From a virus, in IMG/VR virus record IMGVR_UViG_3300032668_000092, positions 1-32,599 of that record: 32,599 bases of DNA; one strand, 5' to 3'. Each line of letters starts with the position of its first letter. Position 1 is the first letter of the stretch. Made by a program: the position numbers and the translations under genes. The notes below the pieces were generated by a model. It had not been told where the DNA came from, ran no database searches, and saw only the letters and a list, made by a program, of their open reading frames with translations. Positions 13,548-32,399 of this stretch are shown piece by piece.

Positions 13548-14117
13548 ATGAGATCAGAGTGGTGTTATTATCAGTCCCATTTTAGCCCAGAATGGTGCCG
13601 GGACATAATAGATAGAGCAAAACAATTACCCGTCGATATGCCTACTTTAGGAGTAGGGGACGGAAAACATTATAATGACGATATAAGACGAAGCCAAATT
13701 CGCTGGATACAGCGTAAACAAGAATGGCAAGACTTATTTGTAACTATAGATAAACTAGTTGCCCAAGCAAATATAGATTTTTTTCGTGTAGAATATAATT
13801 ATTTGCCAATTATTCAATTTACAGAATACGACTATGCTTATCAAGGAACGTTTGCTCGCCATCAAGATTGTTTTTTAACGGTACATAGTGAGCATCAAAG
13901 GAAGTTAAGTTTTAGCATTCAACTAAGTGACCCGGATAGTTATGAAGGTGGTGATCTAGAATTTACTGATGTAGGTATAGTTCCCAAGGCTCAAAATATG
14001 AGACAACAAGGAACAGTAATAATTTTTCCTAGTATTATCTTTCATCAAGTTACCCCCGTAACTAAGGGTATGAGATATAGTCTAGTAGGATGGTATGAAG
14101 GAACTCCTTGGAGGTAA
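13548..14117 (+). CDS. 2-oxoglutarate/Fe(II)-dependent oxygenase (prolyl-4-hydroxylase-like)
   Basis: A 189-residue enzyme of the 2OG-Fe(II) dioxygenase fold. The iron-binding triad is visible: His105 and Asp107 in 'RHQDCF', and His166 in 'PSIIFHQVTPV'. Arg176, ten residues later in 'GMRYSLVGW', is the expected 2-oxoglutarate ligand. 'YEGGDLEF' (132-139) is a family hallmark between these motifs. Such enzymes hydroxylate protein side chains (often proline) or small molecules, with decarboxylation of 2-oxoglutarate. Length fits the minimal catalytic domain with no extra targeting domain. The Shine-Dalgarno AGGA is 4 nt before the ATG. It sits 1.2 kb after a collagen-like fibre gene and between two paralogous small genes. 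Fibre proline as substrate is an attractive inference only. Confidence 0.88.
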   Translation: MRSEWCYYQSHFSPEWCRDIIDRAKQLPVDMPTLGVGDGKHYNDDIRRSQIRWIQRKQEWQDLFVTIDKLVAQANIDFFRVEYNYLPIIQFTEYDYAYQGTFARHQDCFLTVHSEHQRKLSFSIQLSDPDSYEGGDLEFTDVGIVPKAQNMRQQGTVIIFPSIIFHQVTPVTKGMRYSLVGWYEGTPWR

Positions 14118-14120
14118 ATA
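14113..14120 (+). promoter_or_regulatory. T4-late-type promoter motif GGTAAATA, 5 nt before ATG
   Basis: The core TAAATA at 14115-14120 is followed by exactly 5 nt and the ATG at 14126. It overlaps the oxygenase stop codon. Unlike the other 5-nt cases, a GGAGG (14110-14114) is also present. Confidence 0.45.
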
Positions 14121-14125
14121 ACATT

Positions 14126-14473
14126 ATGACAATTACATATACTTGGGAATTTACAAAATTTAAAGCCCATCAAACTTTAAATGGGTTAAACAATGTTGTT
14201 TACAATATTGATTATATCTACACCGGTAGTGATGGTGAAGGTCATGCCGCACAGGTTGCGGGTAATGTTGGGCTAGGTGCTCCTGATCCTAGTACATTTG
14301 TTGAATTCGATCAACTTACAGAATCTCAAGTAATTTCAATGGTAGAAAACGCATTAACTTTTGCTTTACCAAATTTTCAACAAACTATTACAGATAGAAT
14401 TGCTCAGCAAATTTCTCCAGTGACTGTAGAATTAGGAAAACCTTGGACGGTTTCAACTAGTACTGTCGGTTAA
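14126..14473 (+). CDS. Unassigned small protein, paralogue of the gene at 13167
   Basis: A 115-residue protein starting 'MTITYTWEF'. The start at 14126 is preferred to an in-frame TTG at 14108 because GGAGG at 14110-14114 lies before this ATG and the paralogue begins at the matching residue. Shares the 'T-Y-x-W' start and 'FVEFDQLTESQVI' segment with the 13167 product. The 3' end overlaps the convergent Nudix gene by 21 nt. No known catalytic motif. Probably an accessory virion protein by context. Confidence 0.75.
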   Translation: MTITYTWEFTKFKAHQTLNGLNNVVYNIDYIYTGSDGEGHAAQVAGNVGLGAPDPSTFVEFDQLTESQVISMVENALTFALPNFQQTITDRIAQQISPVTVELGKPWTVSTSTVG

Positions 14474-14893
14474 AATCTGAAGTATTAACTCAATTTTTGT
14501 TTTATTAATTCTGCTAGATAGGCTACGCTTTACACCTTGATGTAAAGGTTTTGGCCAATTTGAAATGTCACACCACGCATACCCTACGTGTTCTTCGTTT
14601 AGGGTAGGAATAAATTCTTTATCAACTAAAAGTACATAGGTATTAAAGTAAAAACTAGAATCCTCGCTAGTGTATAATTCTAAAGGAATTACTTTTTTAA
14701 TAGGTGGTGTTTTACCAACTTCTTCTTGTATTTCTCTTTCAAGTGCTTGATATGCTGTAGCATCGTCTGGCTCTTGTTTTCCGCCAACAAGACCCCAAGT
14801 TCCTGCTGTACGTCCTTGATTGCGTAACAAGAATAAAAATCTTTTTGTGTCTTTACTTAAGAATAGTCCACCACTACAAATTATTTTTTTCAT
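14453..14893 (-). CDS. Nudix hydrolase
   Basis: A 146-residue protein with a Nudix box at residues 37-61, containing 'GGKQEPDD' and 'REIQEEVG'. Nudix enzymes hydrolyse nucleoside diphosphates linked to another group, using Mg2+ held by the E-E of REx2EE (Glu57/Glu58 here). The box departs from the classic GX5EX7REUXEEXGU: Asp44 replaces the first Glu and there is one extra residue before the Arg. The start at 14893 is chosen because its ATG overlaps the gp15 stop as ATGA (coupled translation); the longer reading to 14947 has no such support. Last gene of the minus-strand operon gp14-gp15-Nudix and convergent with the 14126 gene. Substrate (damaged nucleotide, ADP-ribose, NAD, cap-like) is not determinable. 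Confidence 0.85.
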   Translation of the reverse strand: MKKIICSGGLFLSKDTKRFLFLLRNQGRTAGTWGLVGGKQEPDDATAYQALEREIQEEVGKTPPIKKVIPLELYTSEDSSFYFNTYVLLVDKEFIPTLNEEHVGYAWCDISNWPKPLHQGVKRSLSSRINKTKIELILQILTDSTS

Positions 14894-16260
14894 AACGATA
14901 TTTGCCAGGCACCTGCGGCATATATACCTTCGTAACTTTTGCTCCAACTAGAGCCGTCCCACTTGTATTGTATGCCTGTATATAAATTAGTTATAAAAGT
15001 TACAGGTTGCGTAGTAGTAGAATCGAATATAATATTCCATTTGACTCCGTCCCATTGTATAATATCATTAGCATTTGCTAAAAATTGTGTACCATCTGAA
15101 TTTTTCCATGCTTGAACATCAGGTGGGATATTTTCTAATATTAGATATCGTGTGTCGATATCTGGGTTTCCGGGATTAAATGTTGTTGGATTAATAACAG
15201 CATTAATTGTTCCCCTAATAAATGTATCTGTTAGGTCCGGCAACGGTGTGTTTAACAAGGTGTCTTGATCAAAATTAATCATCATCTCAACGTCGTTGCT
15301 AGGATTCAATGCCATTGTTCCAACAATTTGTGTTCCGTCCGGACGAGTAAGCATAATTTTACTTAGGCCTGCTTTAAATTGACCTGGATATAAATCTAAT
15401 AATGTGTACCAATTAATGTCTGGGCCATTCTTAACAGGTAAATGAACGTAGTCATCTCCTACTAAATTTTCACCTTCATACATTAATTGTGCGGTAGTAC
15501 CTAAAATAAGAACACTATAATTACCTGGAGTGATCGCTCTAACAGTAACAGGATTAATTAGTAACATATCTGGGTCTAATTCCATGCCAGAAGGTTGTTG
15601 AAAAATGTTAGTAATGATTTGTGTAATAATTCCTAATTGTTTAACCTTAGCCGGAGTAGTTAACCATATAGGAGTTAAGAATGAAAGAGACGCTATATCA
15701 ATATCATTTTCTGCTCCTTGAGGAATATTTCTGTTAGACCATGTAACTCCTGTCAATTCTACATAACTGATACTAGTCCAGTCAACAAAATTAACACTGG
15801 TTTGTATTTCCATAGCAGGATTAAACAATACTAATATTTGTTCAAGTATCTGTAATTTTTGATCGGTATTGGTTGTCCATATATCTACAGAAAAAGTAAT
15901 ATTGAAAGGACTTGGCATCATACGCTCAATTGTAGCGTTAGTTCCTTGATAGTTGAGATATTCAGTTCCGTCATCGCTAACAGCACGTTCTCTAATATTA
16001 ATCTTGCTTATATGTGTAGGATTTTGAATACGCTCTCTAGCATACTCAAAATTCTTAATGTAACAGGCAATAAAAGGTGCCGAGTTAACAAGGTTTTCGC
16101 TGTTTTGTTTCATAACAGCCGATACTTGACGACCAACATCGCCGTATCTTACTGGTACTTGTGTCAATTTTCCAGACGAATCTTTATAACTGAAGTTACT
16201 CATTAACCTCATAAATTGCGTTATATAACGTCTAACTTGCCCGTCGTAAAAATGTTCCAT
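14890..16260 (-). CDS. 15: Tail sheath stabiliser/completion protein, T4 gp15-like
   Basis: A 456-residue protein. The first about 210 residues follow T4 gp15: 'FYDGQVRRYITQFMRLMSN' near the start, then 'VPVRYGD', 'SAPFIACYIKNFEY', 'MMPSPFNITFSVDIWT' and 'ILEQILVLFNP'. In T4, gp15 forms the hexameric ring capping the tail tube and contracting sheath and joining it to the head. T4 gp15 is about 272 residues; here the C-terminal half is an extension, ending in two 'WDGxxW' hairpins (residues 392-456) also seen in gp14 and gp18. A Shine-Dalgarno AAGGA (16267-16271, minus strand) lies 6 nt before the ATG. gp14 is 9 nt upstream in the same operon. Confidence 0.85.
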   Translation of the reverse strand: MEHFYDGQVRRYITQFMRLMSNFSYKDSSGKLTQVPVRYGDVGRQVSAVMKQNSENLVNSAPFIACYIKNFEYARERIQNPTHISKINIRERAVSDDGTEYLNYQGTNATIERMMPSPFNITFSVDIWTTNTDQKLQILEQILVLFNPAMEIQTSVNFVDWTSISYVELTGVTWSNRNIPQGAENDIDIASLSFLTPIWLTTPAKVKQLGIITQIITNIFQQPSGMELDPDMLLINPVTVRAITPGNYSVLILGTTAQLMYEGENLVGDDYVHLPVKNGPDINWYTLLDLYPGQFKAGLSKIMLTRPDGTQIVGTMALNPSNDVEMMINFDQDTLLNTPLPDLTDTFIRGTINAVINPTTFNPGNPDIDTRYLILENIPPDVQAWKNSDGTQFLANANDIIQWDGVKWNIIFDSTTTQPVTFITNLYTGIQYKWDGSSWSKSYEGIYAAGAWQISL

Positions 16261-16269
16261 TTAAAATCC

Positions 16270-17517
16270 TTAATTAAAGTTAGTGCTGGTATTGTCTGCT
16301 TGGATTGATAATAATTGACCAATTTTACTTAATGCTTGACGCTCAGGAATAACTTTTCCACCAATTGTTGATGTATTATTGTTATTAATAAATCCAGTTT
16401 TTTCATTAATCCTATTGCTTGTAAGATTTTCTGGTTGAGTTTTATCAGGATTAGTTGATGTAGGATCATAGGCATTGGTCATAGTCATTCTAACATTTTG
16501 TTCATACATCACCCATGTACTACCGCTATATCTGTACAATACATTAGGAAAGAAATCTGTACGTAAAAAGAATTGTCCCACAATTGGATTTGTTGGGAAA
16601 CTGATGCCAAATCCGTATGGAGCACCGTTCGGGGGTATGCCAGATTCAGTAAGATACCCAACAGGTAATTCGCTAGCCTGCGGACTTTGATATACACTTG
16701 ACGCAGTAGATGCTGGATTTTCAACACTAGCATCAATATCAGTACGGCTAGTATCTTGAAGATCAACAGTTCCGTCCTGACGTTTAGGAATAACAAACAT
16801 ATTCGATGTATCAAATCCGCTTAATGGAGCATCTTCTTCTGCTTGGGCAACAATAGCACTATTAATTTCAATGTTTCTATTGTACGTACTGAGAATATCA
16901 CGTAGAGTGCTGCCGTCGCCGTTGCCAGAATCTTGGTCAAATATTTGACTGTATTCTTGACTGTCGACTAACGGTTCGCATTTTGCTTGAAGTAAGTGCG
17001 GATACCAAGTAGGACTAAATCCATGAACTGGTCTTGTTACATCTGTAACCACGTAAAATCGTTTCAACGCCACATTAAAATCATTTAATGCATATTCGTC
17101 TTTTAAGTGAGGTAATTCAAATACATCACCTGCCATAACTTTTCTGCCAATAGCATTAACACAACTGCTCATGTGGAAATTTACAAGAATATTATCGCTT
17201 GATAAAAACAGTCCAAACTGCTTAAGATCAAAAGCAGGGTCTATCATTGTATAAATTCCACGGATACTGTAGATATTAGGCTCGTAATTTCTATCTCTAT
17301 TCTCCATAAATATTACATCTTGGATGCCTAATTCACCTATAGGATTAGTATTTGTTGGTGTACCCGGAGTCGCTGTTCCTTCCGCGGGTGCTTGAGGACC
17401 TAGATATTTGTGGATGAAGATATCAGTGCCGCCCACTTGAAATTCTTCATTAATGGTGCGGTCTAGAAACTTAAAATCGTTGCCCTTTTCGGGACGGTAA
17501 AGAGATAGTCTTGGCAT
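16270..17517 (-). CDS. 14: Neck protein, T4 gp14-like
   Basis: A 415-residue protein, against 256 in T4. The N-terminal half contains the recognisable pattern 'FGLFLSSDNILVNFHM', 'MAGDVFELPHL', 'LKRFYVVTDVTRP' and 'FSPTWYPHLLQAKCEPLVDSQEY' (about residues 100-190), matching the neck protein that joins head and tail. Residues 200-300 are low-complexity, with a 'W/G' hairpin module at 310-340 ('GQFFLRTDFFPNVLYRYSGSTWV'). It heads the gp14-gp15-Nudix minus-strand operon and diverges from gp13 across 28 nt. A TAAATA motif lies 7 nt before the ATG and there is no clear Shine-Dalgarno. Assignment rests on motif memory and on its gp13/gp15 neighbours. Confidence 0.7.
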   Translation of the reverse strand: MPRLSLYRPEKGNDFKFLDRTINEEFQVGGTDIFIHKYLGPQAPAEGTATPGTPTNTNPIGELGIQDVIFMENRDRNYEPNIYSIRGIYTMIDPAFDLKQFGLFLSSDNILVNFHMSSCVNAIGRKVMAGDVFELPHLKDEYALNDFNVALKRFYVVTDVTRPVHGFSPTWYPHLLQAKCEPLVDSQEYSQIFDQDSGNGDGSTLRDILSTYNRNIEINSAIVAQAEEDAPLSGFDTSNMFVIPKRQDGTVDLQDTSRTDIDASVENPASTASSVYQSPQASELPVGYLTESGIPPNGAPYGFGISFPTNPIVGQFFLRTDFFPNVLYRYSGSTWVMYEQNVRMTMTNAYDPTSTNPDKTQPENLTSNRINEKTGFINNNNTSTIGGKVIPERQALSKIGQLLSIQADNTSTNFN

Positions 17518-17524
17518 AGTAAAC

Positions 17525-17532
17525 TATTTATG
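17525..17532 (-). promoter_or_regulatory. T4-late-type promoter motif CATAAATA for gp14-gp15-Nudix
   Basis: On the minus strand, the motif is followed by 7 nt and the gp14 ATG (17517). It abuts the plus-strand motif at 17533-17540. Confidence 0.55.
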
Positions 17533-17540
17533 GCTAAATA
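17533..17540 (+). promoter_or_regulatory. T4-late-type promoter motif GCTAAATA for gp13
   Basis: Core TAAATA (17535-17540), then exactly 5 nt, then the gp13 ATG (17546). No Shine-Dalgarno is visible, so a leaderless transcript is predicted. Confidence 0.55.
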
Positions 17541-17545
17541 TTGGT

Positions 17546-18304
17546 ATGAGTGATTTAGATAACGAGAAACAACAGGTCATCGAGTACATTAAAAACCTCC
17601 TAGGCGATGGGATGGTTGATGTTGAACTTGATCCAAAACACTATAATACTGCTATTGATAGAGCACTATTAAAGTACCGCCAACGTGCGACTAATTCTGT
17701 AGAAGAAAGTTTCGGCTTTTTAACCCTACAACAAGATACTAACGAATACACATTAGACCCTAATGTTATGCAAGTTCGTCAAGTATTTAGACGCAGTATT
17801 GGTTCTAGAACAGGCGGCGGTGATGGAGGTTCGTTATTTGAACCATTTAACTTGGCCTACACAAATACCTATTTGCTATCATCTAGCAACATGGGTGGTT
17901 TAGCAACATATTACATGTTCGCAAGTTACCAAAATTTAGTTGGTAAAATGTTTGGTAGTTTTATCAACTTTGACTGGAATTCGACTACTAAAAAATTAAG
18001 AATAAGTCAACGTCCGCAAGGTCAGGAAAGTGTTTTACTATGGATGTATAACTATAAACCGGACTATCTAATTTTCCAAGATACGTTTTCTGGTATATGG
18101 ATCAAAGATTACGCCCTAGCAACTTGTAAAATTATGTTAGGCGAAGCACGTGAAAAATTTAATCAAATTGCTGGTCCGCAAGGTGGCACAACTTTAAATG
18201 GTGCCCAACTTAAAGCAGAAGGCAAAGCCGAATTAGACGCCCTTGAATTAGATCTAATTAACTATAAAGACGGCGGAACTCCTTTAAGTTTTGTAATTGG
18301 TTAA
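17546..18304 (+). CDS. 13: Neck protein, T4 gp13-like
   Basis: A 252-residue protein. The start 'QQVIEYIKNLLGDGMVDVELDPKHY' and the end, with 'CKIMLGEAREKFNQ', 'GPQGGTTLNG' and 'GGTPLSFVIG', are the hallmarks of the gp13 neck family, which with gp14 binds the portal and seals the filled head. T4 gp13 is 309 residues, so this is slightly short. It starts with TAAATA-5 nt-ATG and has no Shine-Dalgarno. It diverges from gp14, a different arrangement from T4, where genes 13, 14 and 15 run in the same direction. Confidence 0.82.
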   Translation: MSDLDNEKQQVIEYIKNLLGDGMVDVELDPKHYNTAIDRALLKYRQRATNSVEESFGFLTLQQDTNEYTLDPNVMQVRQVFRRSIGSRTGGGDGGSLFEPFNLAYTNTYLLSSSNMGGLATYYMFASYQNLVGKMFGSFINFDWNSTTKKLRISQRPQGQESVLLWMYNYKPDYLIFQDTFSGIWIKDYALATCKIMLGEAREKFNQIAGPQGGTTLNGAQLKAEGKAELDALELDLINYKDGGTPLSFVIG

Positions 18305-18312
18305 CCTAATCA

Positions 18313-18341
18313 TTGACATTGTAACATTTCCTTAATATAAT
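18313..18341 (+). promoter_or_regulatory. Sigma70-type promoter, TTGACA-17 nt-TATAAT, before the dNMP kinase
   Basis: The -35 box TTGACA (18313-18318) and -10 box TATAAT (18336-18341) both match consensus exactly, separated by the optimal 17 nt. Transcription would start near 18348, giving a leader of about 17 nt that contains the Shine-Dalgarno GGGAGA (18355-18360). This suits early transcription by unmodified host polymerase. Confidence 0.8.
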
Positions 18342-18364
18342 TAAAGTATCGACTGGGAGATACT

Positions 18365-19063: not shown

Positions 19064-19313
19064 GATTTGAATATCTAACATTGGCGGGATTTCCGTCGAT
19101 ATAAAAAACATCAAATTGTTCAGGGTGTTTGCTTGTAAATCCACACTTATCGCATTTATCTTTTTTCTTATATCCGTGTAGTTTCCATCTTGGAACACCG
19201 GGATCTAATCCCCTAGCACAGTGATCACATACAGACCTATAATAGGTCTTGCCTTCTTTTTTGTAATTTACCGCTACCGGACGTTGATTACACTTTTTAC
19301 ATAGGTTTCTCAT
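18978..19313 (-). CDS. Four-CxxC zinc protein, HNH-endonuclease-like but missing the catalytic His
   Basis: A 111-residue protein with four CxxC pairs (Cys5/8, 29/32, 54/57 and 88/91), so two or more zinc sites. The last part, 'FDVFYIDGNPANVRYSNLKTVCSNC', follows the HNH pattern. In HNH enzymes, however, the site just before 'IDG' is normally His (as in the 'VYHIDG' form that I recall from cyanophage relatives); here it is Tyr71, so nuclease activity is doubtful. The ATG at 19313 is chosen over an in-frame TTG at 19340, because a purine-rich AAAAGGG lies before it and the late motif at 19344 is correctly upstream. It overlaps the dNMP kinase by 86 nt tail to tail. Confidence 0.7.
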   Translation of the reverse strand: MRNLCKKCNQRPVAVNYKKEGKTYYRSVCDHCARGLDPGVPRWKLHGYKKKDKCDKCGFTSKHPEQFDVFYIDGNPANVRYSNLKTVCSNCQRVLHKEGVRWTQGDLTPDF

Positions 19314-19343
19314 ACCGTGCCCTTTTTGTGCCCTTTTCAATAG

Positions 19344-19373: not shown

Positions 19374-19381
19374 CATAAATA
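19374..19381 (+). promoter_or_regulatory. T4-late-type promoter motif CATAAATA for the tail sheath
   Basis: Core TAAATA (19376-19381), 34 nt before the sheath ATG. The leader holds a strong Shine-Dalgarno GGGAGA (19403-19408). Confidence 0.6.
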
Positions 19382-19415: not shown

Positions 19416-22400
19416 ATGGCCACATTAAATTCACCAGGCGTAAGCGTATCAGTAATAGATGAAAGTTTCTATACGCCAGCGGCTCCAGGTACAGTTCCTT
19501 TAATTATTGTTGCGTCAGCACAAGATAAGATGAACGCAAGCGGAACTGGAATTGCAGCAGGTACACAAAAAGCAAACGCAGGTACAGTATACCTAATTAC
19601 TAGCCAAAGAGATCTTACAGATACTTTTGGTACTCCATTGTTTTACACAGATGCTAGCGGTAACCCAGTTAACGGTGGCGAACTTAACGAATACGGTCTA
19701 CAAGCCGCATATAGTTTATTAGGTGTCAGTTCAGCGGCTTATGTTGCTCGTGCTGATTTAGATCTAAGCGAACTAGTTCCACAATCTAGCGCACCAGTTG
19801 GCTTGCCAGCAGACGGCACATATTGGTTAGACACTACTTCAAATACTTCATGGGGTATTTTTGAGTGGAATGAAACTACACAAGCATTTGTCAATAAAGT
19901 TCCTACTATCATTGATAATAGTAACATGGACATGTATCTAAGCGAAGACGGGATGACTCCTGCTTCTAACTTCTTAACTCCTGGTTCATACGTTGTTGTT
20001 GCTACAAGCACAAATGAAATCCAAACATGGTATAAAAACAGTTCTTCAAACTGGGTACAAATTGGTACTAACACAGAAACAGGTTTCACAGCAGGAAGCA
20101 CATTTAGTTCTACAGTATGGCAAACAAGTTGGCCAGTTGTTACAAGTTCTATTGCAATTCCAGCAAGCCTAAGTTCACCCCCCGGCCCTGCAATTATTAT
20201 TAACGGTCAGACTGTTACTTTACCTGGTCCAACTCTAACTCCAAGTACTCTTGCTACAAGTATTAATGCAATAATGCGTAATCAAGGTGTTAATGCTACA
20301 ATTGGTACAGGCGGAGTCCTACAATTATTTGCTGATGCTACAGCATCAAGCAACGGCGCAAGCGGAGCAAGTGCTCAAGCAACTATGGAAGTTGCTACTA
20401 TTGCTATTGCTAATAGCGGTACACACTATGCTGTTGGTAATATTTTAAATGTAATGGGTGGAGCAGGTACAAGTGCTACAATTCAAGTTACTGCTATTAC
20501 TACATCTGGAGCAATTACTAGTGCTACTATTGTTAACTCAGGTGAATACACAGGTTCTATTCCTAATGCTGGCGGTGCTATTACAACTGCTAATACAACT
20601 GGTCCTACCGGTGCTACATTCAACTTAACATTCACCGTTGAAGCAATTAATATTGTTTCTGGTGGTGTTGACTATGATGTTCCTCCAACCGTTGGTATTG
20701 GCGGTAATGCTACAATTGGTACTGTTACTGTTTCAGGTGGCGCAGTTACAAATATTGCGGTAAGCAATCCTGGTAGCGGATATACAAGTATTCCTTCAGT
20801 AAGCATTCAAAATCCAAACGTACAAGACGGTAAGATTAAGATTCAAGCGGCCAATACAGGAACATCAACAACATTCTTGGCAGCGATTGGTTTAACTGCT
20901 GGTACATATAATCCAGTGACATTATTCCAAGGTCCGCATACTGCTTATCCAGATTTTAGTTCTACACCAAGTGGATCTGTTTATATCAAAACAACAAATC
21001 CAAATCAAGGTGCGTTCTGGGCAACAAAAATTTACAGCGCAAGCACAAATGCGTGGAATTTAGTCAAGGCTCCAATCTATGCTAAACCTGAACTAGCAAT
21101 CGCTGGTTTAGATCCTGCTAAAGATGGTGCTAATATTGCAGTTGGTACACTATATGTTAAGGACAACTATGATGACGGTATTGGTCTAGCAAGCGAACCA
21201 TCGCTAGCAGAATTCCAAATCTTCCGTAGAACATCTACTGGTCCTACAACTATTGTTTCACCAACTAAGATTCAAACTGTAACATTTACAAACACATCAA
21301 CTTTTGATATTAAAGAAAGTTATCAAGGTGCGTTTATTAATACTGCTACAATTACAATTCAACCAGGTGATACATTATCGACAGTGGTTGGATATATCAA
21401 TGCCGCAGGTTTACAATATACTTCTGCTACATATGATAACACACAATTTACTGTTACAATTACTCATAGCCTAGGTGGTGAGATTCGTTTCTTAGACGGA
21501 ACTCATACTCCATTAGCAACTGCTCTTGGATTTACAGCATGGTCTAGAAATCCTACAACTGGTGTAACAGCAGGTACTACTAACTTCTATGGAGTAGGTA
21601 TGTACGAACCAGACGGTTATACATACGAAGCAAGTAACTGGGCTCCACTAGTATTTGAAGCACAACCAACTGCTCCATATCTAGATCCAGAAGATGGCAC
21701 ATTGTGGTTCGATTCTCTAGTTGACGAAGTTGATATCATGTACCACAACGGTATTAACTGGGTAGGATATCGTGATTCCTCAGCATTCCCAGGAACAGAT
21801 CCTAATGGTCCACAAATTGCTAGCGAGGCTCCAACAACACAAAGTGATGGAACAAGTCTAGTCAATGGTGATATTTGGATCAGCACAGCAGACTTAACCA
21901 TGTATGGTCAAAACATTTATGTTTGGAACGGACAAACTCTAAAATGGGTTCAACAAGATCCAACTGACCACACAACTCCAAATGGTTGGTTATTTGCTGA
22001 TGCTCGTTGGGCAACATCAGGTACAACAGAAACTGCTTCAACAATCAAAGCATTGTTAACAAGCAACTATGTAGATCCTGACAGTCCAGATCCAAGCCTA
22101 TATACAAAAGGCACACGTTTATGGAACCTACGTCGTAGTGGATATAACGTTAAGAAATACGAAGCAAATTACATTAACCTCGAAGCCAATGGTGGCCTAA
22201 ACTTAAGATACCAAAATCAAGTTATGGACGGAAGTGGCGGGGCTACTCCGTATGTAACAGCACGTTGGGTAAGCGTAAGTCCAAATACTCCTTTAGGTGT
22301 TGGATCGTTTGGTCAGGCCGCACAACGCAGTTTTGTTGTTAAGAGTTTGAAATCATTAATTGACACAAGTCAGGCAATCCGTGATACAGATACACTTGTA

Positions 22401-23255: not shown

Positions 23256-23263
23256 AATAAATA
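23256..23263 (+). promoter_or_regulatory. T4-late-type promoter motif AATAAATA for the tail tube
   Basis: Directly follows the sheath stop and is 22 nt before the tube ATG. Shine-Dalgarno AAGGAG at 23272-23277. Confidence 0.55.
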
Positions 23264-23943: not shown

Positions 23944-23971
23944 AAAAGACCCGATTATCGGGTCTTTTTTT
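23944..23971 (+). terminator. Rho-independent terminator after the tail tube
   Basis: An 11-bp stem (inner GACCCGA/TCGGGTC, extended by A-T pairs) with a 3-nt loop, followed by a run of T. Confidence 0.9.
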
Positions 23972-23974
23972 ACG

Positions 23975-23982
23975 ACTAAATA
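23975..23982 (+). promoter_or_regulatory. T4-late-type promoter motif ACTAAATA, 5 nt before ATG
   Basis: Begins 4 nt after the terminator. Core TAAATA (23977-23982), then exactly 5 nt, then the ATG at 23988. No Shine-Dalgarno. Confidence 0.55.
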
Positions 23983-23987
23983 TTGTT

Positions 23988-25616
23988 ATGTCTAATATAG
24001 CCGCAAACCAACCTACCTTAAGATCATACCAACACGCCTCTAGAATATTTGTCAGCAATACATATAGTCTAGCCCCTAAGGCTGGATGGCTCTTTTATGT
24101 AAGTTTTCAAATTAATAAAGCGGCGTTAGGTACAAGCGCAGGGGGAAAGACTTTAGGAACAAGTCTCTTAAATCTTGCTCAAGGAGTAAGTGGACAAGCA
24201 GGGGTTGCTGATGTATGGACAACAACTAGTCCTAATTTAGGAATGTTAGTTAAACAAACAGATTTACCCAAATTTGCTCCAAAGACAGAAGTGGTTAATC
24301 AATATAATAGAAAAACTGTTGTTCAAACAGGAATGACATATAATCCAGTCAACATGGTTTTTCATGATGATATGAGTAACGTCACACAAAAACTATGGAC
24401 CTATTATTATCAATATTATTTTGGTGATAGTAATGTAACTACACCTTTAGGTGGAGCATTAGGTGGTGCTATTGGTAGTGCATTAGGTGGCGGCCTTGGC
24501 GGAGTACTTGGAGGAGCGTTAGGCAATGTAATTGGAGGCGGGGCAACATTGCCAGCGGCCAAATACGGAAATACAAAATACAATCCTCAATCTGTTATAA
24601 CACCGGCAACAGCATATGGTCTTAATAACGGTCAAGTTGATCCTTTCTTTCAGAGCATAACAATATATCAATTAAACCAAAAAGAATATTCTTGTTTTAC
24701 ATTAGTGAATCCTTTAATTACACAATGGGATCATGATAGATTAGATGTAGCATCGGGTAACAAAGTATTAGAAAATAAAATGACAGTAATGTATGAAGCA
24801 GTACTGTACGGATACGGTAAAGTAAAAGCAGGAAGTAATCCTCCAGGATTTGCGTCAAATTATTATGATTTAACTCCTAGTCCAATTGCCGATGCTGGCA
24901 ATGGAAATTACGACAATAGTGTAGATCCATTTAGTAAAGTTGGCAATAGCGGGGAAAGTACACAAGGTGGGTTAAGTGTATTAGGATCATTACTAGGCTC
25001 CCAGAATTTAGTTAGTAACGCATTAGGAGCAATAGGATTAGGTTCCGGCACACCTGGTGGATTAGGAAGTGTATTTGGCGGTTCAGCAGTGGCGGGTGCG
25101 TTAGGTGGTATTGGAACATTGTTTGGTGGGGGTAGCGGAAATGCTGGACCTACTGCTTCTGCGTCTAATGCTTCAGCAGGCGCAAATATTGCGGCTGACC
25201 TTGCTTCTGGAAAAATAACTCCTGCTCAAGCAAAGGCAATGTTAACTACTGGAGCCACAGGCGCTACCGGTCCAACAACTGGAGCAAGTGGTTCTGATAC
25301 TGGAGCAAGTGGTGCTACTGGTGCTGATACTGGAGCAAGTGGTGCTACTGGACCAACTGATAGTAATCCTGATCCAACACAATCCGGTGGTGATACTGGA
25401 AACGGTAGTAACCCAACTACTCAAGATCAAACCAGTGGAAATAATCCAGATTCACAAAGTGATGCTAATGCTCAACAAACTAACTCTGATCAAACCCAAA
25501 CTACCTCAGACTATACCGGTCCTAGGGTAGTCTATGCTCCAGATGGATCTAGTTCTCCTGTTGATGAGTTAGGTAATGTTGAAAAGACGTTAGTAAACGG
25601 AAGTTTTAATAGTTAA
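23988..25616 (+). CDS. Tail-tube-fold or baseplate-type structural protein with glycine-zipper and collagen-like segments
   Basis: A 542-residue protein. The N-terminal part resembles tube/baseplate-tube subunits: 'GWLFYVSFQIN', 'LVKQTDLPKFAPKTEVVNQYNRKTVVQ' (about 87-112), 'VNMVFHDDMSNV', and later 'SITIYQLNQKEYSCFTLVNPLITQWDHD'. This pattern is like gp19/gp54-type tube initiators, and the gene directly follows gp19, but which T4 gene it matches is unclear. Residues about 154-185 are a Gly-x-x-x-Gly zipper ('GGALGGAIGSALGGGLGG'), with a second Gly-rich run at about 345-385. Residues about 420-455 carry collagen-like 'GATGATGP' and 'DTGASGATG' triplets, then a Gln/Asn/Asp/Thr-rich disordered tail. 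Starts without a Shine-Dalgarno right behind a late promoter motif. First gene of a six-gene unit. Confidence 0.65.
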   Translation: MSNIAANQPTLRSYQHASRIFVSNTYSLAPKAGWLFYVSFQINKAALGTSAGGKTLGTSLLNLAQGVSGQAGVADVWTTTSPNLGMLVKQTDLPKFAPKTEVVNQYNRKTVVQTGMTYNPVNMVFHDDMSNVTQKLWTYYYQYYFGDSNVTTPLGGALGGAIGSALGGGLGGVLGGALGNVIGGGATLPAAKYGNTKYNPQSVITPATAYGLNNGQVDPFFQSITIYQLNQKEYSCFTLVNPLITQWDHDRLDVASGNKVLENKMTVMYEAVLYGYGKVKAGSNPPGFASNYYDLTPSPIADAGNGNYDNSVDPFSKVGNSGESTQGGLSVLGSLLGSQNLVSNALGAIGLGSGTPGGLGSVFGGSAVAGALGGIGTLFGGGSGNAGPTASASNASAGANIAADLASGKITPAQAKAMLTTGATGATGPTTGASGSDTGASGATGADTGASGATGPTDSNPDPTQSGGDTGNGSNPTTQDQTSGNNPDSQSDANAQQTNSDQTQTTSDYTGPRVVYAPDGSSSPVDELGNVEKTLVNGSFNS

Positions 25617-26459: not shown

Positions 26460-26939
26460 ATGACAAAAAGATTAGAAGAGGTTTTTAACCTTCCACCCGA
26501 AAAAAAAGAACCAGTTGTTTCTGAAGCAGATTTACAGGCTCCACCATCATTAAACCTTCAAGAAAAACTTGAAGAATTTGACAAGATATCAGCGGCCCTT
26601 CCTAGAGTAAAAGGTTTAGGTGATATTAGTGATAGTGAATTAGATGCCCTAGCAAACAAAGCAGAACAAGCCTATGACGATATCATGGACTTAGGAATGC
26701 AAGTCGAACCGCGCTATGGAGCACGTATGTTTGAAGTGGCCGCAAATATGATGAATGCCGCAATTACAGCAAAATCTGCCAAAATTGACAAGAAATTAAA
26801 GATGGTAGAATTACAGATTAAAAAATACGGTATCGACAAAAAACAGGGCGATGCTACTCCAGGTGCTATAGAAGCACAAGGTGTTCTAATTACTGACCGT
26901 AATAGCCTACTGGAAAAACTCAAAAATATGGATAAATAA
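26460..26939 (+). CDS. 16: Terminase small subunit, T4 gp16-like
   Basis: A 159-residue protein (T4 gp16 is 164). Small terminases form rings that select viral DNA and stimulate the large subunit. The central helical region 'YGARMFEVAANMMNAAITAKSAK' with 'KKLKMVELQIKKYG' (about 80-123) matches the gp16 oligomerisation core. The C-terminal 'GVLITDRNSLLEKLKN' matches the gp16 end that touches gp17. Length, the coiled-coil core and the gp17 gene 1.7 kb downstream agree. Unlike T4, gp16 and gp17 are not adjacent; two unassigned genes and a terminator lie between. Only a weak Shine-Dalgarno is seen. Confidence 0.82.
   Translation: MTKRLEEVFNLPPEKKEPVVSEADLQAPPSLNLQEKLEEFDKISAALPRVKGLGDISDSELDALANKAEQAYDDIMDLGMQVEPRYGARMFEVAANMMNAAITAKSAKIDKKLKMVELQIKKYGIDKKQGDATPGAIEAQGVLITDRNSLLEKLKNMDK
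26931..26938 (+). promoter_or_regulatory. T4-late-type promoter motif GATAAATA, 5 nt before ATG
   Basis: Lies within the last three codons of gp16, with the core TAAATA (26933-26938) exactly 5 nt before the ATG at 26944. Confidence 0.5.
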
Positions 26940-26943
26940 ATTT

Positions 26944-27534
26944 ATGAAGACTTTTAAAGAATACCTCAACGATTCTCGTAGAACATACCCATTTAGAATT
27001 AAACTAGCGGGCGATATTACTACCGAGCAAGAAGCACGTCTAAATAAAATGTTAGAACGTTTTGCTATCAGCCAATTTAAGAAAGTTGGAAAAACACCAA
27101 TCCAAGCATTGCCATTAGATTTTCCTAAATTGAAGAATTGTGAAGTATCTGTATATGAAGTTCAGTTAAATTATCCAACTACACCTAATGAGTTGAAAGA
27201 ATATCTTACTGACGGATTAGAAATTAATCGAGATAGTCTAGTTGTTCGTAATCCGAATGAGCCAACTGAAGAATATCAACGTCCGCATGAACCACGTGAA
27301 GGTGCTTTATTAGATGACGTTAATTATTCAGAAGCACCTAACGCAGATTTTAATGATTACTACGGTTCTAAATACAATGCTAGTTTCATTAAAGAAATTA
27401 CTGATACATTAAAAGAAAAACAAAAGGCTCGCGGTGAAGAACGTCCAACCGGGGACCAAGCAGAAGAGAGCAATAAGGAATTTGTTTCTCATAGCCCACT
27501 TCAGCAAGCACCGGATCCAAGAAGGAAGAAATAA
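26944..27534 (+). CDS. Unassigned phage protein (196 aa)
   Basis: A 196-residue protein I do not assign. The N-terminal 'MKTFKEYL' is a start type common among T4-like phage virion or head proteins. Residues 15-110 look like one folded domain ('YPFRIKLAGDITTEQEARLNKMLERF', 'LKNCEVSVYEVQLNYPTTP', 'RDSLVVRNPNEP'). The rest is charged and Pro-rich, probably disordered. It lies between the two terminase genes and ends just before the next gene. The start has a TAAATA-5 nt-ATG arrangement and no Shine-Dalgarno. Confidence 0.75.
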   Translation: MKTFKEYLNDSRRTYPFRIKLAGDITTEQEARLNKMLERFAISQFKKVGKTPIQALPLDFPKLKNCEVSVYEVQLNYPTTPNELKEYLTDGLEINRDSLVVRNPNEPTEEYQRPHEPREGALLDDVNYSEAPNADFNDYYGSKYNASFIKEITDTLKEKQKARGEERPTGDQAEESNKEFVSHSPLQQAPDPRRKK

Positions 27535-27535
27535 C

Positions 27536-28606
27536 ATGCAAATGATCGACGTAATGAAAAGACTAGCAGAATTAGATTCTACTAATCCTAATGTAGTCAA
27601 AGAAGAAAAAGCAGAAGTAAAAGAAACTCCTGTTCAGTTATCTGAATCTGTTCAATTTAAAAAATTAGCAGGTGTTCCACTTACTGAAAGCGAAATCTTA
27701 GAATGTGGTATTCCAGGTATGGGAGCAGAAATGCCTCATATGCCAGCAACAATTAACATGAGCGCCGCAAGTGCTAGTGAAATTGTTACAATGATGAGAG
27801 GTATTGTTGATCTTGCTAAAACAGATGCTCCAAGCGATGCTATGGCAATGGCAGTATCAGATGAATTGCCAGGTATTCCAGGCGCAGATGATGCTCTAGT
27901 TCCAGGACACGCAGAACCAGTTGACGCATTAGCAGTTGACGAGCCAGGAGTAGACCTTCCAGGATCTAGCGACGACGAAGTTATGGATCTTATTAAAAAG
28001 ATTCACACAGGACAGCCAGTAAAAGTTACAACTGACATGCCAGTAAAAGTATCAACTGATAAAGATATTAAAGGCTCTACAACTGACAAGCATACATCTA
28101 GCGACAACGGCAGCGAAGAAGACGAAGGGTTCCGCGGATACGATAATAGCCCGCATGAACAGAAAAAAGATTATAACCCAAATGACTTTGCTCAAGTAGT
28201 CAATAAGGTCAGGGATTTTGATTACACTCCAGCGCCTGGCGCTTCAAACCCAATGCCTGATCAAGAAGAAAAAGAAAAAGAAAAAGACGAAAGTATTAAT
28301 TTTGAGGCTCAACTATTTGCCGAATACAAAAAGTTTGTAAGCGAATCTAAAGAAAAAGGTGTTTCAGAAAGTGAGACACAACACATTCCAATTGGTCAAC
28401 AAATGGCCAATGATGGTATTACATACAGTCGTGAAAAAGAAGGTGAAATTATTGATTTAATGGTTCAATACATGAAGAAAGATGGAATGAGTCCAAAATC
28501 AATTCGTTATTACATAAACTATGACGAAGATTATGTTCCTGATCAATTAAGTTACTTACCAAGAGCAAAAAAGAGTGGTGCTGACAGTAGACTAGATAAC
28601 AAGTAA
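27536..28606 (+). CDS. Unassigned acidic protein sharing a C-terminal domain with the 30255 product
   Basis: A 356-residue protein starting 1 nt after the previous stop. The ATG at 27536 is preferred to an upstream in-frame ATG at 27434 because AAGGA (27522-27526) lies 9 nt before it. Residues 7-47 include 'MKRLAELD' and 'FKKLAGV'. The middle is acidic, with Asp/Glu/Lys-rich and Ala/Met-rich stretches. Residues 282-343 ('IPIGQQMANDGITYSREKE...DEDYVPDQLSYLPR') form a domain of about 62 residues repeated in the 30255 product. Function unknown; low-complexity acidic regions suggest an internal or scaffolding-type protein, but this is inference. Confidence 0.75.
   Translation: MQMIDVMKRLAELDSTNPNVVKEEKAEVKETPVQLSESVQFKKLAGVPLTESEILECGIPGMGAEMPHMPATINMSAASASEIVTMMRGIVDLAKTDAPSDAMAMAVSDELPGIPGADDALVPGHAEPVDALAVDEPGVDLPGSSDDEVMDLIKKIHTGQPVKVTTDMPVKVSTDKDIKGSTTDKHTSSDNGSEEDEGFRGYDNSPHEQKKDYNPNDFAQVVNKVRDFDYTPAPGASNPMPDQEEKEKEKDESINFEAQLFAEYKKFVSESKEKGVSESETQHIPIGQQMANDGITYSREKEGEIIDLMVQYMKKDGMSPKSIRYYINYDEDYVPDQLSYLPRAKKSGADSRLDNK
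28376..28565 (+). repeat. 190-bp direct repeat, copy A
   Basis: Hand alignment to 31713-31902 gives about 15 differences over 190 positions, without gaps. It encodes the shared C-terminal domain, and the two copies flank the large terminase gene. Confidence 0.9.
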
Positions 28607-28620
28607 TTTTACGCAACACC

Positions 28621-28649
28621 AAATAGCCCCCACGGGGGCTATTTTTTTT
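28621..28649 (+). terminator. Rho-independent terminator before the large terminase
   Basis: Stem AAATAGCCCC/GGGGCTATTT with a short loop, then eight T. Confidence 0.9.
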
Positions 28650-28657
28650 GGTAAATA
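28650..28657 (+). promoter_or_regulatory. T4-late-type promoter motif GGTAAATA, 5 nt before ATG
   Basis: Immediately follows the terminator T-run. Core TAAATA (28652-28657), then exactly 5 nt, then the ATG at 28663. No Shine-Dalgarno. Confidence 0.55.
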
Positions 28658-28662
28658 TTCAC

Positions 28663-30246
28663 ATGGCAGGTAAAAATACAGATAATCAACTCGTTAAAAA
28701 GGCGCACTCAACACAGGCGTGGACAGAAGACGATATTAAACATCTTCAAGGATGTATGGATCCAGTTATGGGTCCGCATTACTTCCTTGAACATTTCTTT
28801 CACATACAACATCCTACAAAAGGAAAGATGTTGTATAAGCCCTTTGAATACCAGGCAAGGTTGATTGATAGTTATCACGGTCATCGTTTTAACGTTAATA
28901 TGTTACCTCGTCAAACAGGTAAGACAACTACAGCGGCAGGATACCTGTTATGGTATGCGATGTTTGTACCAGATAGTACAATTCTTATAGCGGCACACAA
29001 GTATACAGGTGCTAAAGAAATTATGACACGTATTCGTTATGCTTACGAATTGTGTCCAAATTTTATTCGTCCGGGCGTTACAAGTTACAACAAAGAGTCG
29101 ATAGAATTTGATAACGGATCACGTATTGTAGCGCAGACTACAACTGAAACAACAGGTCGTGGTATGTCACTATCATTACTATACGCTGACGAGTTTGCGT
29201 TCGTACCGCCTAATGTGGCTTCAGAATTCTGGACTTCAATTTCGCCTACACTAGCAACTGGCGGTAAGGCAATTATTACATCAACTCCTAATAGTGACGA
29301 AGACCAATTTGCTAGCATCTGGAAAGAAGCCAACAAGCGTGTAGACGAGTTCGGTAATACTACAGATGTAGGAAAGAACGGTTTCTTTCCGTTTAAAGCA
29401 CATTGGAGCGAACATCCAGATCGTGACGAAAAATGGAAAGCAGAAGAAATGTCGCGTATCGGAGAAGAACGTTTCCGACGTGAACACGAATGTGAATTCT
29501 TAGTCTTTGATGAAACACTTATCAGCAGTATTTGTCTAGCAGGACTAGAAGGAAAAGAGCCAATTCTTAAAATGGGACAAGTTCGTTGGTACAAAAAAAT
29601 TGATCCGATGATGACTTATATTGTAGCACATGACCCTGCTATGGGAACAGGTGGAGATTATGCCGCTATTCAAATTTTAGAAATTCCTAGCATGATACAG
29701 GTAGGCGAATGGCAACACAATATGACTAGGGTACAAGGACAGGTTCGAATATTAAGAGACATTTGTAAGTATATTGATGAATGTTGTGGAGGCTCTCCTA
29801 ACCTCTATTTTAGTGTAGAAAACAATACATTAGGTGAAGCGGCGCTGGTTGCTATCAGCGAAATGGGCGAGGAAACAATACCTGGAATGTTTCTAAGTGA
29901 ACCGGTAAAAAGAGGACACGTTAGACGTTTTCGTAAGGGATTTAATACCACCAGTATTAGCAAAATTAATGCCTGTGCCAAATTAAAACAGTTGGTTGAA
30001 AACAATCAAATAATATTAAACAGCAAGTCACTAATAAGTGAATTAAAGACATTTGTTGCTGTAGGTGTTAAATTTGAAGCAAAAGCGGAACAACACGACG
30101 ATTTAGTATCTGCTATGTTGCTGGCAATTAGAATGCTGTTAATGCTCGGAGATTGGGATCCTGGAGTTTATGCTAAAATGACAGAAGATCGCATTTTAGA
30201 CGATATGGAAATGCCCATGCCCATATATGTAAGTAATTTCTCATAA
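28663..30246 (+). CDS. 17: Terminase large subunit, T4 gp17-like
   Basis: A 527-residue packaging motor (T4 gp17 is 610). The N-terminal ATPase has the Walker A 'RQTGKTT' at residues 83-89, Walker B 'LLYADE' (Asp176, catalytic Glu177) and a coupling motif 'ITSTPN' near 205-210. The C-terminal RNase H-like nuclease has its acidic triad at Asp324 ('AHDPAMGTGGDY'), Glu386 ('SVENNT') and Asp479/480 ('HDDLVSAM'). It pumps DNA through the portal and makes headful cuts. The ATG at 28663 is preferred to an in-frame TTG at 28648, since only the former keeps the late motif upstream; conserved packaging motifs start well after both. It starts a two-gene unit after a terminator. Confidence 0.95.
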   Translation: MAGKNTDNQLVKKAHSTQAWTEDDIKHLQGCMDPVMGPHYFLEHFFHIQHPTKGKMLYKPFEYQARLIDSYHGHRFNVNMLPRQTGKTTTAAGYLLWYAMFVPDSTILIAAHKYTGAKEIMTRIRYAYELCPNFIRPGVTSYNKESIEFDNGSRIVAQTTTETTGRGMSLSLLYADEFAFVPPNVASEFWTSISPTLATGGKAIITSTPNSDEDQFASIWKEANKRVDEFGNTTDVGKNGFFPFKAHWSEHPDRDEKWKAEEMSRIGEERFRREHECEFLVFDETLISSICLAGLEGKEPILKMGQVRWYKKIDPMMTYIVAHDPAMGTGGDYAAIQILEIPSMIQVGEWQHNMTRVQGQVRILRDICKYIDECCGGSPNLYFSVENNTLGEAALVAISEMGEETIPGMFLSEPVKRGHVRRFRKGFNTTSISKINACAKLKQLVENNQIILNSKSLISELKTFVAVGVKFEAKAEQHDDLVSAMLLAIRMLLMLGDWDPGVYAKMTEDRILDDMEMPMPIYVSNFS

Positions 30247-30249
30247 ATA
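30242..30249 (+). promoter_or_regulatory. T4-late-type promoter motif CATAAATA, 5 nt before ATG
   Basis: The core TAAATA begins with the terminase stop codon, then exactly 5 nt, then the ATG at 30255. No Shine-Dalgarno. Confidence 0.55.
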
Positions 30250-30254
30250 CAGTC

Positions 30255-32399
30255 ATGAATATAATTAACATTATCGCCCAGGATTTATTTGACAAAGTAC
30301 GCAGTCGTTTTACCAATTTACAAATGGGTAACGAAAGCGGTGCTGTTACAAGCGATCCTTCAGAGGCACGATTTTTTGACTTTGATTTTGTACTCGAAGG
30401 CAATAATTTAGGTAGAGTCAGTATTAGTATTAACGAACGCGGTTCCTTAAAGATCTTCTACAGTCAAGGAATTACAGAAGGTACTGACAGTATAACAAGA
30501 GGACTATGGTTTGATTTCCTACGTGAAATGCGATTCTTTGCTAAACGAAGAATGATGCGTTTTGACACTCGAGACATTACTAAAGGAAATTTAAACAAGG
30601 ACGATTTTCAGTTCTTATCAATAAACGGATCGAAGGAAGCCACTATGAATGAATCATCTATGTACGGTAGCAGTAAAACAAGTTACCGCAAATTAGAGAG
30701 TACACGCTTAATTGTACGTCACTCTCAAGCAGTAAACGAAGAACAGCCAGGAGCAAGAACTCGTCATATCACTGCGTTGTTCATCGAAAATGCCGAAGGT
30801 GAACGTTTTAAATATCCGTTTATTCATCTAGCAGGCGCTAAAGCAATGCAACGTCATGTGGCAAACGGTGGCCGACCATATGATGCTATTGGTGAATCAA
30901 TCATGAATGTCAGCGAGCAAATTGCTCAGTTGAATACATTTAAACGTTACGTATCACATAACAATCTTGTTAGCGAAGATGTTTCTAATATCACAGAACA
31001 CGCTAATCAAAAGTTAGAACAATTAAGAGATCATATTCATAAACTACAAGGTCAAAATTATTATTCTTCATTTGTTGAAAATTTTAAACCATCTGAAAAT
31101 GTAGAATTAGATGAAGTTACTTTAGAAGACTATAAGAGCAAATTTACTGTTAAAAGTTTTGAAGAAGACTTGACAAGTATATTTCCGTTAATTCATGCTA
31201 TTATGCAAGAAGCAGGCACAGTTGATTTAGAAGATATTGTAAGCGAAGATACTGATGAGCCAGATGACAACGGAAACATCGAACGCGGTTATAACGCATT
31301 TGAAAATTTTGAAGAATGGGCAGACGCTTTAGAAGAAGGCATTATGACTCCTGATCAAATTGATCAATTTAGAGATTTAATTAGTTCTGGATTGACTTTA
31401 GGTCCCGATGGCACTAGTGCTATTGAAGCATTGGCAGGAATTGGCATTGAAGATCCAAAATTAGAACAGGCGTTAAAATCTTTAGCCGCTGTTGATCCTA
31501 ATGCCGATCCGGGCGAAACAATTGAAGCATGGTTGAAAGTAAATGATCCAGATGCGCTAGCACAACTAGGCGCAGGAGCAGAAGAACCGGCACCTGAACA
31601 AGAACCGGCACCTGAACAAGAACCAGCACCTGAACAAGAACCAGCACCTGAACAAGAACCAGCGCCTGAAATGGATCCTAATGTACAACAACCGACAGCG
31701 GAAGATACAAATACACAACATGTTCCGATTGGTCAACAAATGGCAAATGATGGTATTACATACAGTCGTGAAAAAGAACGTGAAATTATTGGCTTAATGG
31801 CTCAATATATGAAGAAAGATGGAATGAGTCCAAAATCAATTCGTTATTATCTAAATTATGACGAAGATTATATTCCTGATCAATTGAGTTACTTGCCAAG
31901 AGAGAAAGCGCCAGAAGAAGGCGAAGATATGGATAACGCAGAGCCAAAAGGTAAAGAACAAGTTAACATGAAAGAGTTGGCAGAGTTTATTGGTGCTTTC
32001 TATAATCCACATGGACGCGAGCAAGGGTTAGGCGAATGGCGTAAAGGCCCAACTGAGTTAGGTATCATGGCCGGTAAACAGTTTGGTGACAAGGCCGGGC
32101 GAATTGTAGAAAAGTTAGTGACAAAAATGCAATCAGCAGGAGAAGGAGATCATCAATTTTCTGAAGTTATGAGACTTGCCGGTATTAAAACATCCGAAAG
32201 TGGTCCGAACAAAGTCGACGTTCCTGCTTATCAACGTAAAAAATCAGGTGATAAAGATTGGAATGTAACTCGAAAAGACCTAGAAAAAGATGATGAAAAG
32301 AAACTTTCTAGCAAAGCAGGTTTAGCCGCTCTTAAAAAACGTAGCGGTATCGAAGAAGAATTTGATGTTGTATTAAAATTAGCCGGTTTGGCAAAATAA
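30255..32399 (+). CDS. Unassigned 714-aa protein with VNTR and duplicated C-terminal domain
   Basis: A 714-residue protein directly after the large terminase. The N-terminal part (1-240) is a folded basic domain ('FFDFDFVLEGNNLGRVSISINERG', 'GLWFDFLREMRFFAKRRMM', 'STRLIVRHSQAVNEEQPGARTRHI', 'FIENAEGERFKYPFIHLAGAKAMQRHV'). It is followed by acidic helical segments, a Pro-Ala-Pro-Glu-Gln-Glu repeat (about 444-472), the domain shared with the 27536 product (about 490-550), a segment 'ELAEFIGAFYNPHG', and two 'LAG' motifs near the end ('VMRLAGI', 'VVLKLAGL'). It is not the portal gp20, whose conserved motifs are absent. Function unknown; probably virion or head-associated. Confidence 0.75.
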   Translation: MNIINIIAQDLFDKVRSRFTNLQMGNESGAVTSDPSEARFFDFDFVLEGNNLGRVSISINERGSLKIFYSQGITEGTDSITRGLWFDFLREMRFFAKRRMMRFDTRDITKGNLNKDDFQFLSINGSKEATMNESSMYGSSKTSYRKLESTRLIVRHSQAVNEEQPGARTRHITALFIENAEGERFKYPFIHLAGAKAMQRHVANGGRPYDAIGESIMNVSEQIAQLNTFKRYVSHNNLVSEDVSNITEHANQKLEQLRDHIHKLQGQNYYSSFVENFKPSENVELDEVTLEDYKSKFTVKSFEEDLTSIFPLIHAIMQEAGTVDLEDIVSEDTDEPDDNGNIERGYNAFENFEEWADALEEGIMTPDQIDQFRDLISSGLTLGPDGTSAIEALAGIGIEDPKLEQALKSLAAVDPNADPGETIEAWLKVNDPDALAQLGAGAEEPAPEQEPAPEQEPAPEQEPAPEQEPAPEMDPNVQQPTAEDTNTQHVPIGQQMANDGITYSREKEREIIGLMAQYMKKDGMSPKSIRYYLNYDEDYIPDQLSYLPREKAPEEGEDMDNAEPKGKEQVNMKELAEFIGAFYNPHGREQGLGEWRKGPTELGIMAGKQFGDKAGRIVEKLVTKMQSAGEGDHQFSEVMRLAGIKTSESGPNKVDVPAYQRKKSGDKDWNVTRKDLEKDDEKKLSSKAGLAALKKRSGIEEEFDVVLKLAGLAK
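31584..31670 (+). repeat. 18-bp tandem repeat encoding Pro-Ala-Pro-Glu-Gln-Glu
   Basis: Nearly five tandem copies of an 18-bp unit (GAACCAGCACCTGAACAA and close variants). The length is a multiple of three, so copy-number changes keep the frame. Probably a flexible linker. Confidence 0.9.
31713..31902 (+). repeat. 190-bp direct repeat, copy B
   Basis: Second copy of the repeat at 28376-28565, about 92% identical by hand alignment, same orientation and same length. Confidence 0.9.

Follow-up and report, generated by a model that had tools for sequence, protein, structure and literature searches.

The stretch of DNA considered here, referred to throughout as the window, is a viral fragment of 32.6 kb from a metagenome (32,599 nucleotides, nt; IMG/VR record IMGVR_UViG_3300032668_000092) that carries a virion gene block of the T4 type, and in this block the late promoter box TAAATA repeatedly lies almost against the start codon of a gene. 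The minus strand of the block encodes a gp3-like sheath stabiliser and a gp14-like protein, after which the order is gp13, a deoxynucleoside monophosphate (dNMP) kinase, the tail sheath, the tail tube, head closure, the terminase large subunit (TerL) and a virion protein; other genes are called by the coordinate of their start codon, and N5 denotes five nucleotides between box and ATG. An earlier note on the window, made from its letters alone, had listed six TAAATA-N5-ATG arrangements and an N7 spacing at gp14, and had proposed that such genes form a class of leaderless late mRNAs. All six are present as described, on the plus strand, with open reading frames (ORFs) of 115–714 amino acids opening at their ATGs, and the N7 spacing is likewise correct and lies on the minus strand (Table 1). 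Dinucleotide shuffles of the window give an expectation of 0.82 ± 0.90 such arrangements, none of 100 shuffles reached six, and the reversed pattern does not occur in the window.

These near boxes differ from a second set of late genes in the window, in which the box stands further upstream and leaves room for a leader. The earlier note had named 13167 (N21), the sheath gene at 19416 (N34) and the tube gene at 23286 (N22), all of which do have a Shine-Dalgarno (SD) sequence, together with 6630 (N21), where the SD is weak; gene 12948 (N28, CGGAG) also fits this far-box set but had been overlooked. The proposed exclusion between near box and SD was assessed in relatives, which were IMG/VR contigs retrieved via TerL, the sheath, gp13 and the 30255 protein, homologous starts being placed by tblastn, blind to the box, and counted over distinct upstream regions. 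In the pooled homologues an SD accompanies 9 of 455 near boxes and 245 of 296 far boxes (446 and 51 without SD, respectively; Fisher p 1e-131, a nominal value as the sequences are related), and the same contrast recurs gene by gene, so that the exclusion is borne out. The 446 near-class starts have no SD in the predicted transcript. For 14126, which the note had treated as the exception, a GGAGG does exist, at 14110–14114, but from its position 5' of the box it could serve a read-through mRNA only. At 14110–14128 this SD, the stop codon of the upstream gene (whose TAA is that of the 14115 box), the late box and the ATG are crowded into 19 bp, and the 14126 start could, on this arrangement, be usable both on read-through mRNA and as a leaderless start.

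The spacing itself is conserved in a manner that depends on the gene. N5 is kept in 96 of 107 gp13 homologues, 95 of these 96 being without SD; N4 or N5 is found in 71 of 92 TerL homologues, with an SD in 0 of 72 near-class starts; and 83 of 85 members of the 30255 family have N4–N7, 82 of the 83 lacking an SD. Homologues of 23988 have N5 in 63 of 105 cases, those of the gp14-like gene (n=93) have N7 in 62, N5 in 9 and N8 in 9, and those of 26944 are mixed, with N4–N7 in 35 and a far box in 53. Sheath homologues never have a near box, their box lying at 21–42 nt in 108 of 110 (106 of the 108 with SD), and the same is true of tail tube homologues, with a box at 18–41 nt in 73 of 104 and an SD in all 104. 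When sequences are clustered at 80% amino-acid identity, the near state is seen in 20 of 26 gp13 clusters, 51 of 53 of 30255 and 8 of 14 of TerL, and the far state in 83 of 84 sheath clusters; judged by sequence conservation, then, the near or far state is a gene-specific property, held across many such clusters. Among relatives the five-letter spacer differs in sequence, so that what is kept is its length. The constant N5 of the earlier note is thus exact for its six genes in the window, and looser in relatives, which range from N4 to N8 with N5 dominant.

The peak at this spacing is specific to the box and to true starts. At TerL-relative loci N5 occurs 166 times, against about 17 at other spacings and 18 in the reversed control. 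Other AT-rich hexamers taken as controls (TAATAA, TAAAAT, TATAAA, AATAAT and others) gave no N5 peak, and the shifted peaks of ATAAAT and AATAT-type hexamers arise solely from overlap with the TAAATA site. Whole-genome tallies, in which ORF starts were scored for their distance from TAAATA, show a clear N5 peak throughout the clade, with N4–N7 starts numbering 20 in G001 (322 kb), 29 in G014 (332 kb), 23 in G016, 13 in G002, 12 in G019 and 8 in G020. N5 spacing is not equally frequent before ATGs that are not starts, since 19 of the 20 N5 matches in the whole of G014 are at ORF-start ATGs and the reversed control gives 1.

The position at which transcription would begin can be judged from the T4 late promoter, in which the box TATAAATA spans −13 to −6 (PMC1524935), so that with N5 the first transcribed base (+1) would be the A of the ATG. 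A TATAAATA-like box with a variable first-position T stands, as TAAATA, before near- and far-class genes alike and is kept in their homologues, and by the T4 coordinates the observed range (N4–N8, mode N5) fits transcription that begins with the AUG itself or a few nucleotides away. Polymerases prefer a pyrimidine at −1 and a purine at +1. The base before the ATG is a pyrimidine in 287 of 294 N5 cases, as against 67% at starts without a box and 44% at far-class starts, an excess that would be expected if the polymerase must begin on the next purine, as a purine at −1 would give an earlier start site. A purine occupies the sixth position past the box in 95–96% of the sheath and tube promoters, which have no ATG nearby, an independent hint as to where +1 would lie. 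An almost invariant ACT-ATG marks the genes with N7, in which position 5 is an A (62 of 62 in the gp14-like family), and those with N8 have A at position 6 (9 of 9), which suggests that both groups probably have a 3-nt ACU leader.

The surroundings of several near boxes leave little room for a longer message. Intrinsic terminators lie directly before the TerL and 23988 boxes, a hairpin and T-run being found directly upstream in 64 of 73 near-class TerL starts and 61 of 69 near-class 23988 starts, and the TerL stem has double (compensatory) changes at 3 of 6 pairs among relatives; read-through mRNA should therefore be scarce at both genes. The gp13 and gp14-like genes are divergent (17514–17548), with 28 bp between their start codons and both boxes inside, back to back as TATTTA-N4-TAAATA, and no gene precedes gp13 on its own strand. 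This arrangement is kept in most relatives, the reverse box lying N2–N9 away in 86 of 107, and six divergent near/near pairs occur in G014, the start codons of one pair being 12 bp apart. For TerL, 23988, gp13 and the gp14-like gene a leaderless message is, on this layout, almost unavoidable, provided that the box is functional.

Table 1. Late boxes, terminators and near-class genes of the window (near, box N4–N8 from the ATG; far, box further upstream).
Feature	Position	Strand	Remark
Late box, N5 and ATG of 14126	14115..14128	+	N5 in 4/8 relatives
Late box, N7 from ATG at 17517 (gp14-like operon)	17525..17530	-	ACTATG conserved
Late box, N5 and ATG of gp13 (neck; ATG 17546)	17535..17548	+	N5 in 96/107 relatives
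Late box, N5 and ATG of 23988	23977..23990	+	N5 in 63/105 relatives
Late box, N5 and ATG of 26944	26933..26946	+	Overlaps stop codon of 26460-26939
Late box, N5 and ATG of TerL (gp17; ATG 28663)	28652..28665	+	N4/N5 in 71/92 relatives
Late box, N5 and ATG of 30255	30244..30257	+	N4-N7 in 83/85 relatives; TAA of box doubles as TerL stop codon
Far box, N21, SD, gene 13167	13140..13145	+	Contrast set
Far box, N34, SD, tail sheath gp18 (19416)	19376..19381	+	SD in 106/108 far-box relatives
Far box, N22, SD, tail tube gp19 (23286)	23258..23263	+	SD in 73/73 far-box relatives
Intrinsic terminator, 11-bp hairpin and T-run, just 5' of 23988 box	23944..23972	+	-15.3 kcal/mol, z -4.3 (RNA fold)
Intrinsic terminator just 5' of TerL box	28621..28651	+	-17.9 kcal/mol, z -4.4; stem covaries
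phrog_7802 gene, function not assigned	14126..14473	+	Near class
gp14-like virion protein (phrog_11591)	16270..17517	-	Near class, N7
Operon: gp14-like 16270-17517, sheath stabiliser 14890-16260, nudix		-	Late box at 17525..17530
gp13-like neck protein (phrog_211, head-tail adaptor Ad2)	17546..18304	+	Near class
Tail-tube-related structural protein (phrog_13438)	23988..25616	+	Near class
TerL, gp17	28663..30246	+	Near class
Virion structural protein (phrog_13484)	30255..32399	+	Near class

The box, its spacing, the absence of an SD, the terminators, their conservation and, in large relatives, the sigma gene are all observed in the sequence, and from them we infer the 5' end itself and leaderless translation. 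TAAATA boxes would be T4-type late promoters, read by the host RNA polymerase with a gp55-family sigma factor. In the near class (gp13, the gp14-like gene, TerL, 23988, 30255 and some 20–30 more per large relative genome) a box 4–6 nt before the ATG would have the polymerase begin on the A of the start codon, giving a leaderless mRNA, and a box 7–8 nt before it would most likely give a 3-nt leader ending ACU-AUG; ribosomes would then have to initiate at an AUG standing at the very 5' end, unaided by an SD. The sheath, tube and major capsid proteins, which are abundant in the virion, would keep a strong SD, either in a leader or through their position in an operon. A gp55-family sigma (phrog_234) was found in 8 of 20 clade contigs searched, mostly large ones (including G001, G014, G002 and G016), and in phage MIJ3; it was not seen in shorter clade fragments, the window being itself a fragment without gp55. 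Given the gene-by-gene near spacing, the absence of an SD, the terminators just before two of the genes, the −1 pyrimidine, gp55 in the large contigs and the absence of the trait from T4-like phages that use leaders, with no sequence test running contrary, we regard a genuine class of late mRNAs with leaders of 0–3 nt, driven by a gp55-type sigma, as highly probable and a strong prediction. The class proposed in the earlier note is therefore upheld, but is not confined to this contig, being a trait of the whole clade and of pelagimyophages.

Comparison with known systems sets limits on this trait. In T4 and its kin (gp55 sigma, gp45 clamp and gp33; Straboviridae and cyanomyoviruses) late promoters likewise have a TAAATA box about one helical turn before +1 and no −35 element, a gp55-family sigma is encoded and virion genes are served. 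In T4, S-PM2, P-RSM4 and KVP40, however, the box is mostly 17–40 nt before the ATG, T4 gene e being an example with late promoters that shortly precede a ribosome-binding site (PMC3014915), and whole-genome tallies gave 0 ORF starts at N4–N7, so the idea that near-class starts are general to all T4-like phages was rejected. In RaK2, GAP32, Phosso and Mel-JY01, counts of the bare N5 pattern, as distinct from scored starts, were near their reversed controls. Of the listed cultured phages, Pseudomonas phage PAC2 (Wroclawvirus, Arenbergviridae) is nearest by TerL, at 57% identity, and PA5oct-type phages of this group (MIJ3, PAC2), whose kinship is judged by gene order and TerL identity, share the order neck, kinase, sheath, tube, resolvase-like, TerL, as well as TAAATA boxes and a gp55-family sigma. 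MIJ3 differs in that the late boxes of the structural block inspected lie 19–46 nt upstream with an SD, and in that three starts are at N5, although TAAATA occurs 607 times in its 288 kb.

The trait reappears in the cultured Pelagibacter phage HTVC008M, which has 11 ORF starts at N5 genome-wide; nine starts annotated in GenBank are exactly at N5, namely 6280, 7562, 11972, 16007(−), 18916(−), 18943, 19456, 31132 and 49760. In its relatives N5 is kept by gp48 in 27 of 30 and by gp2 in 21 of 28, and as in the clade the annotated late starts at N5 have no SD, except for the tape measure gene, and there is a divergent pair, gp2/gp4, 26 bp apart. The differences are that the lineage is distant, that the spacer is of a TAAATAG type and that the −1 pyrimidine rule is weaker at gp4. 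By sequence, the near-box trait occurs in two distant lineages, the uncultured clade of T4-related giant phages and the pelagimyophages, the second of them culturable. A metagenomic study of pelagimyophages reported that late-promoter prediction failed (PMC7029224), which may be due to the box touching the start codon.

No earlier report of leaderless late mRNAs in T4-like phages was found among open-licence papers, which is weak evidence of absence. To our knowledge the leaderless cases known in phages are single genes, unlike the repeated, gene-specific late class on a gp55-type promoter predicted here. Leaderless mRNAs such as that of lambda cI from PRM and those of mycobacteria (PMC4633059) are alike in that transcription begins at the AUG and there is no SD. 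A promoter motif meeting start-codon letters is also known from phiKZ, whose late promoters have a TATG with the G reported as the start in the work cited in PMC5312081, although phiKZ uses a phage-encoded non-virion RNA polymerase and a different promoter; AR9 differs in having late leaders of 26–491 nt.

Several points weigh against a leaderless class. The 5' end and the N-terminus are predictions, the +1 position is borrowed by analogy from T4, and the spacing ranges over N4–N8 rather than being fixed. No gp55 was found in G015, G018 and G021, each >90 kb, which may be fragments or carry a divergent form. Genes 14126, 26944 and 30255 start 4–9 nt after an upstream stop codon, where translational coupling on read-through mRNA is possible. 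The latter could be extended to the whole class, the late promoter being real but translation proceeding mainly from longer read-through mRNAs, by termination–reinitiation or SD-independent internal starts, with the near box adding little. The GGAGG of 14126, usable on read-through mRNA only, agrees with this, but the strong terminators before TerL and 23988 and the divergent gp13/gp14-like pair, which has no upstream gene, do not, and coupling accounts for neither the conserved N5 nor the −1 pyrimidine; we consider this explanation unlikely.

A still smaller chance is given to TAAATA-N5 being an AU-rich, SD-independent translation signal that recruits ribosomes in the mRNA rather than a promoter at the start codon. 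AU-rich unstructured leaders can promote initiation without an SD, and TAAATA-N5 replaces the SD almost perfectly; yet the same box lies 18–42 nt upstream of SD-led late genes in the same genomes, where it is the known T4 late promoter, and a translation signal has no need of a terminator before it, of a −1 pyrimidine or of back-to-back copies in divergent gaps of 12–41 bp. The overlap of several boxes with the preceding stop codon could also be taken to mean that tight spacing is a by-product of compaction, the real 5' end lying a few nucleotides downstream and the true starts at a later ATG. Homology backs the N5 ATG as the start, however, the annotated starts of HTVC008M are these ATGs, and T4, S-PM2, P-RSM4 and KVP40 are also compact with zero near-class starts, which makes this the least probable account of all.

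Some further observations concern the gene content of the window. A perfect sigma70 promoter, TTGACA-N17-TATAAT, lies at 18313–18341 before the dNMP kinase (18365). This gene carries an SD but no late box, an early-type gene within the late block. A GTG-start ORF at 27434–28606 overlaps the end of 26944 in a different frame, has no PHROG match and has homologues in 12 distinct regions only. Two very large ORFs, of 2182 and then 1912 amino acids, lie in the region 39–12368; the latter has only a weak SD and is preceded, at 21 nt, by a late box of the far type. Gene 30255 was considered as the portal and rejected, as every large relative has a separate Portal_T4 gene (gp20). A host hint was sought among the genome contigs, and no relative was found there.

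Near boxes may serve to keep genes compact, to lower the dosage of virion proteins needed in few copies, or both. The SD-led genes are those of the major capsid (with a strong AAGGAGA-type SD in relatives), sheath and tube, and the near class includes TerL, the neck, the gp14-like protein, a gp25-like wedge and a tape-measure-like protein, which would fit a split between high-copy and low-copy virion proteins and, with it, dosage control. Enzymes and proteins of no assigned function are also near-class, so dosage control stays a suggestion only, and genome compaction is a simple alternative reason. A phage-encoded ribosomal protein bS21 is present in 3 of 20 relative contigs (L293, L294 and L295, in G018, G015 and G001, respectively) and is possibly linked to SD-independent translation; its role as a required helper of leaderless translation is not supported, given its presence in only 3 of 20 contigs, many being fragments. 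It is a tentative idea, and one we think doubtful as a whole, that in at least two separate T4-related lineages a leaderless late class separates low-copy proteins (TerL, neck, gp14, wedge and tape measure) from SD-led capsid, sheath and tube, the position of the promoter acting as a switch of translation mode, perhaps aided by a late change of the host ribosome of which the bS21 in three contigs would be a part.

In the textbook model of T4-type late transcription, leaders carry an SD, and the prediction made here departs from it, in that the mRNAs of an entire class of phage late genes would begin at, or at most 3 bases from, the start codon. It raises the question of how infected cells would translate leaderless messages efficiently at late times, and whether the position of a promoter may serve as a control of protein dosage, and it would provide simple rules by which the late promoters of uncultured T4-like phages, pelagimyophages among them, and their true start codons could be found.

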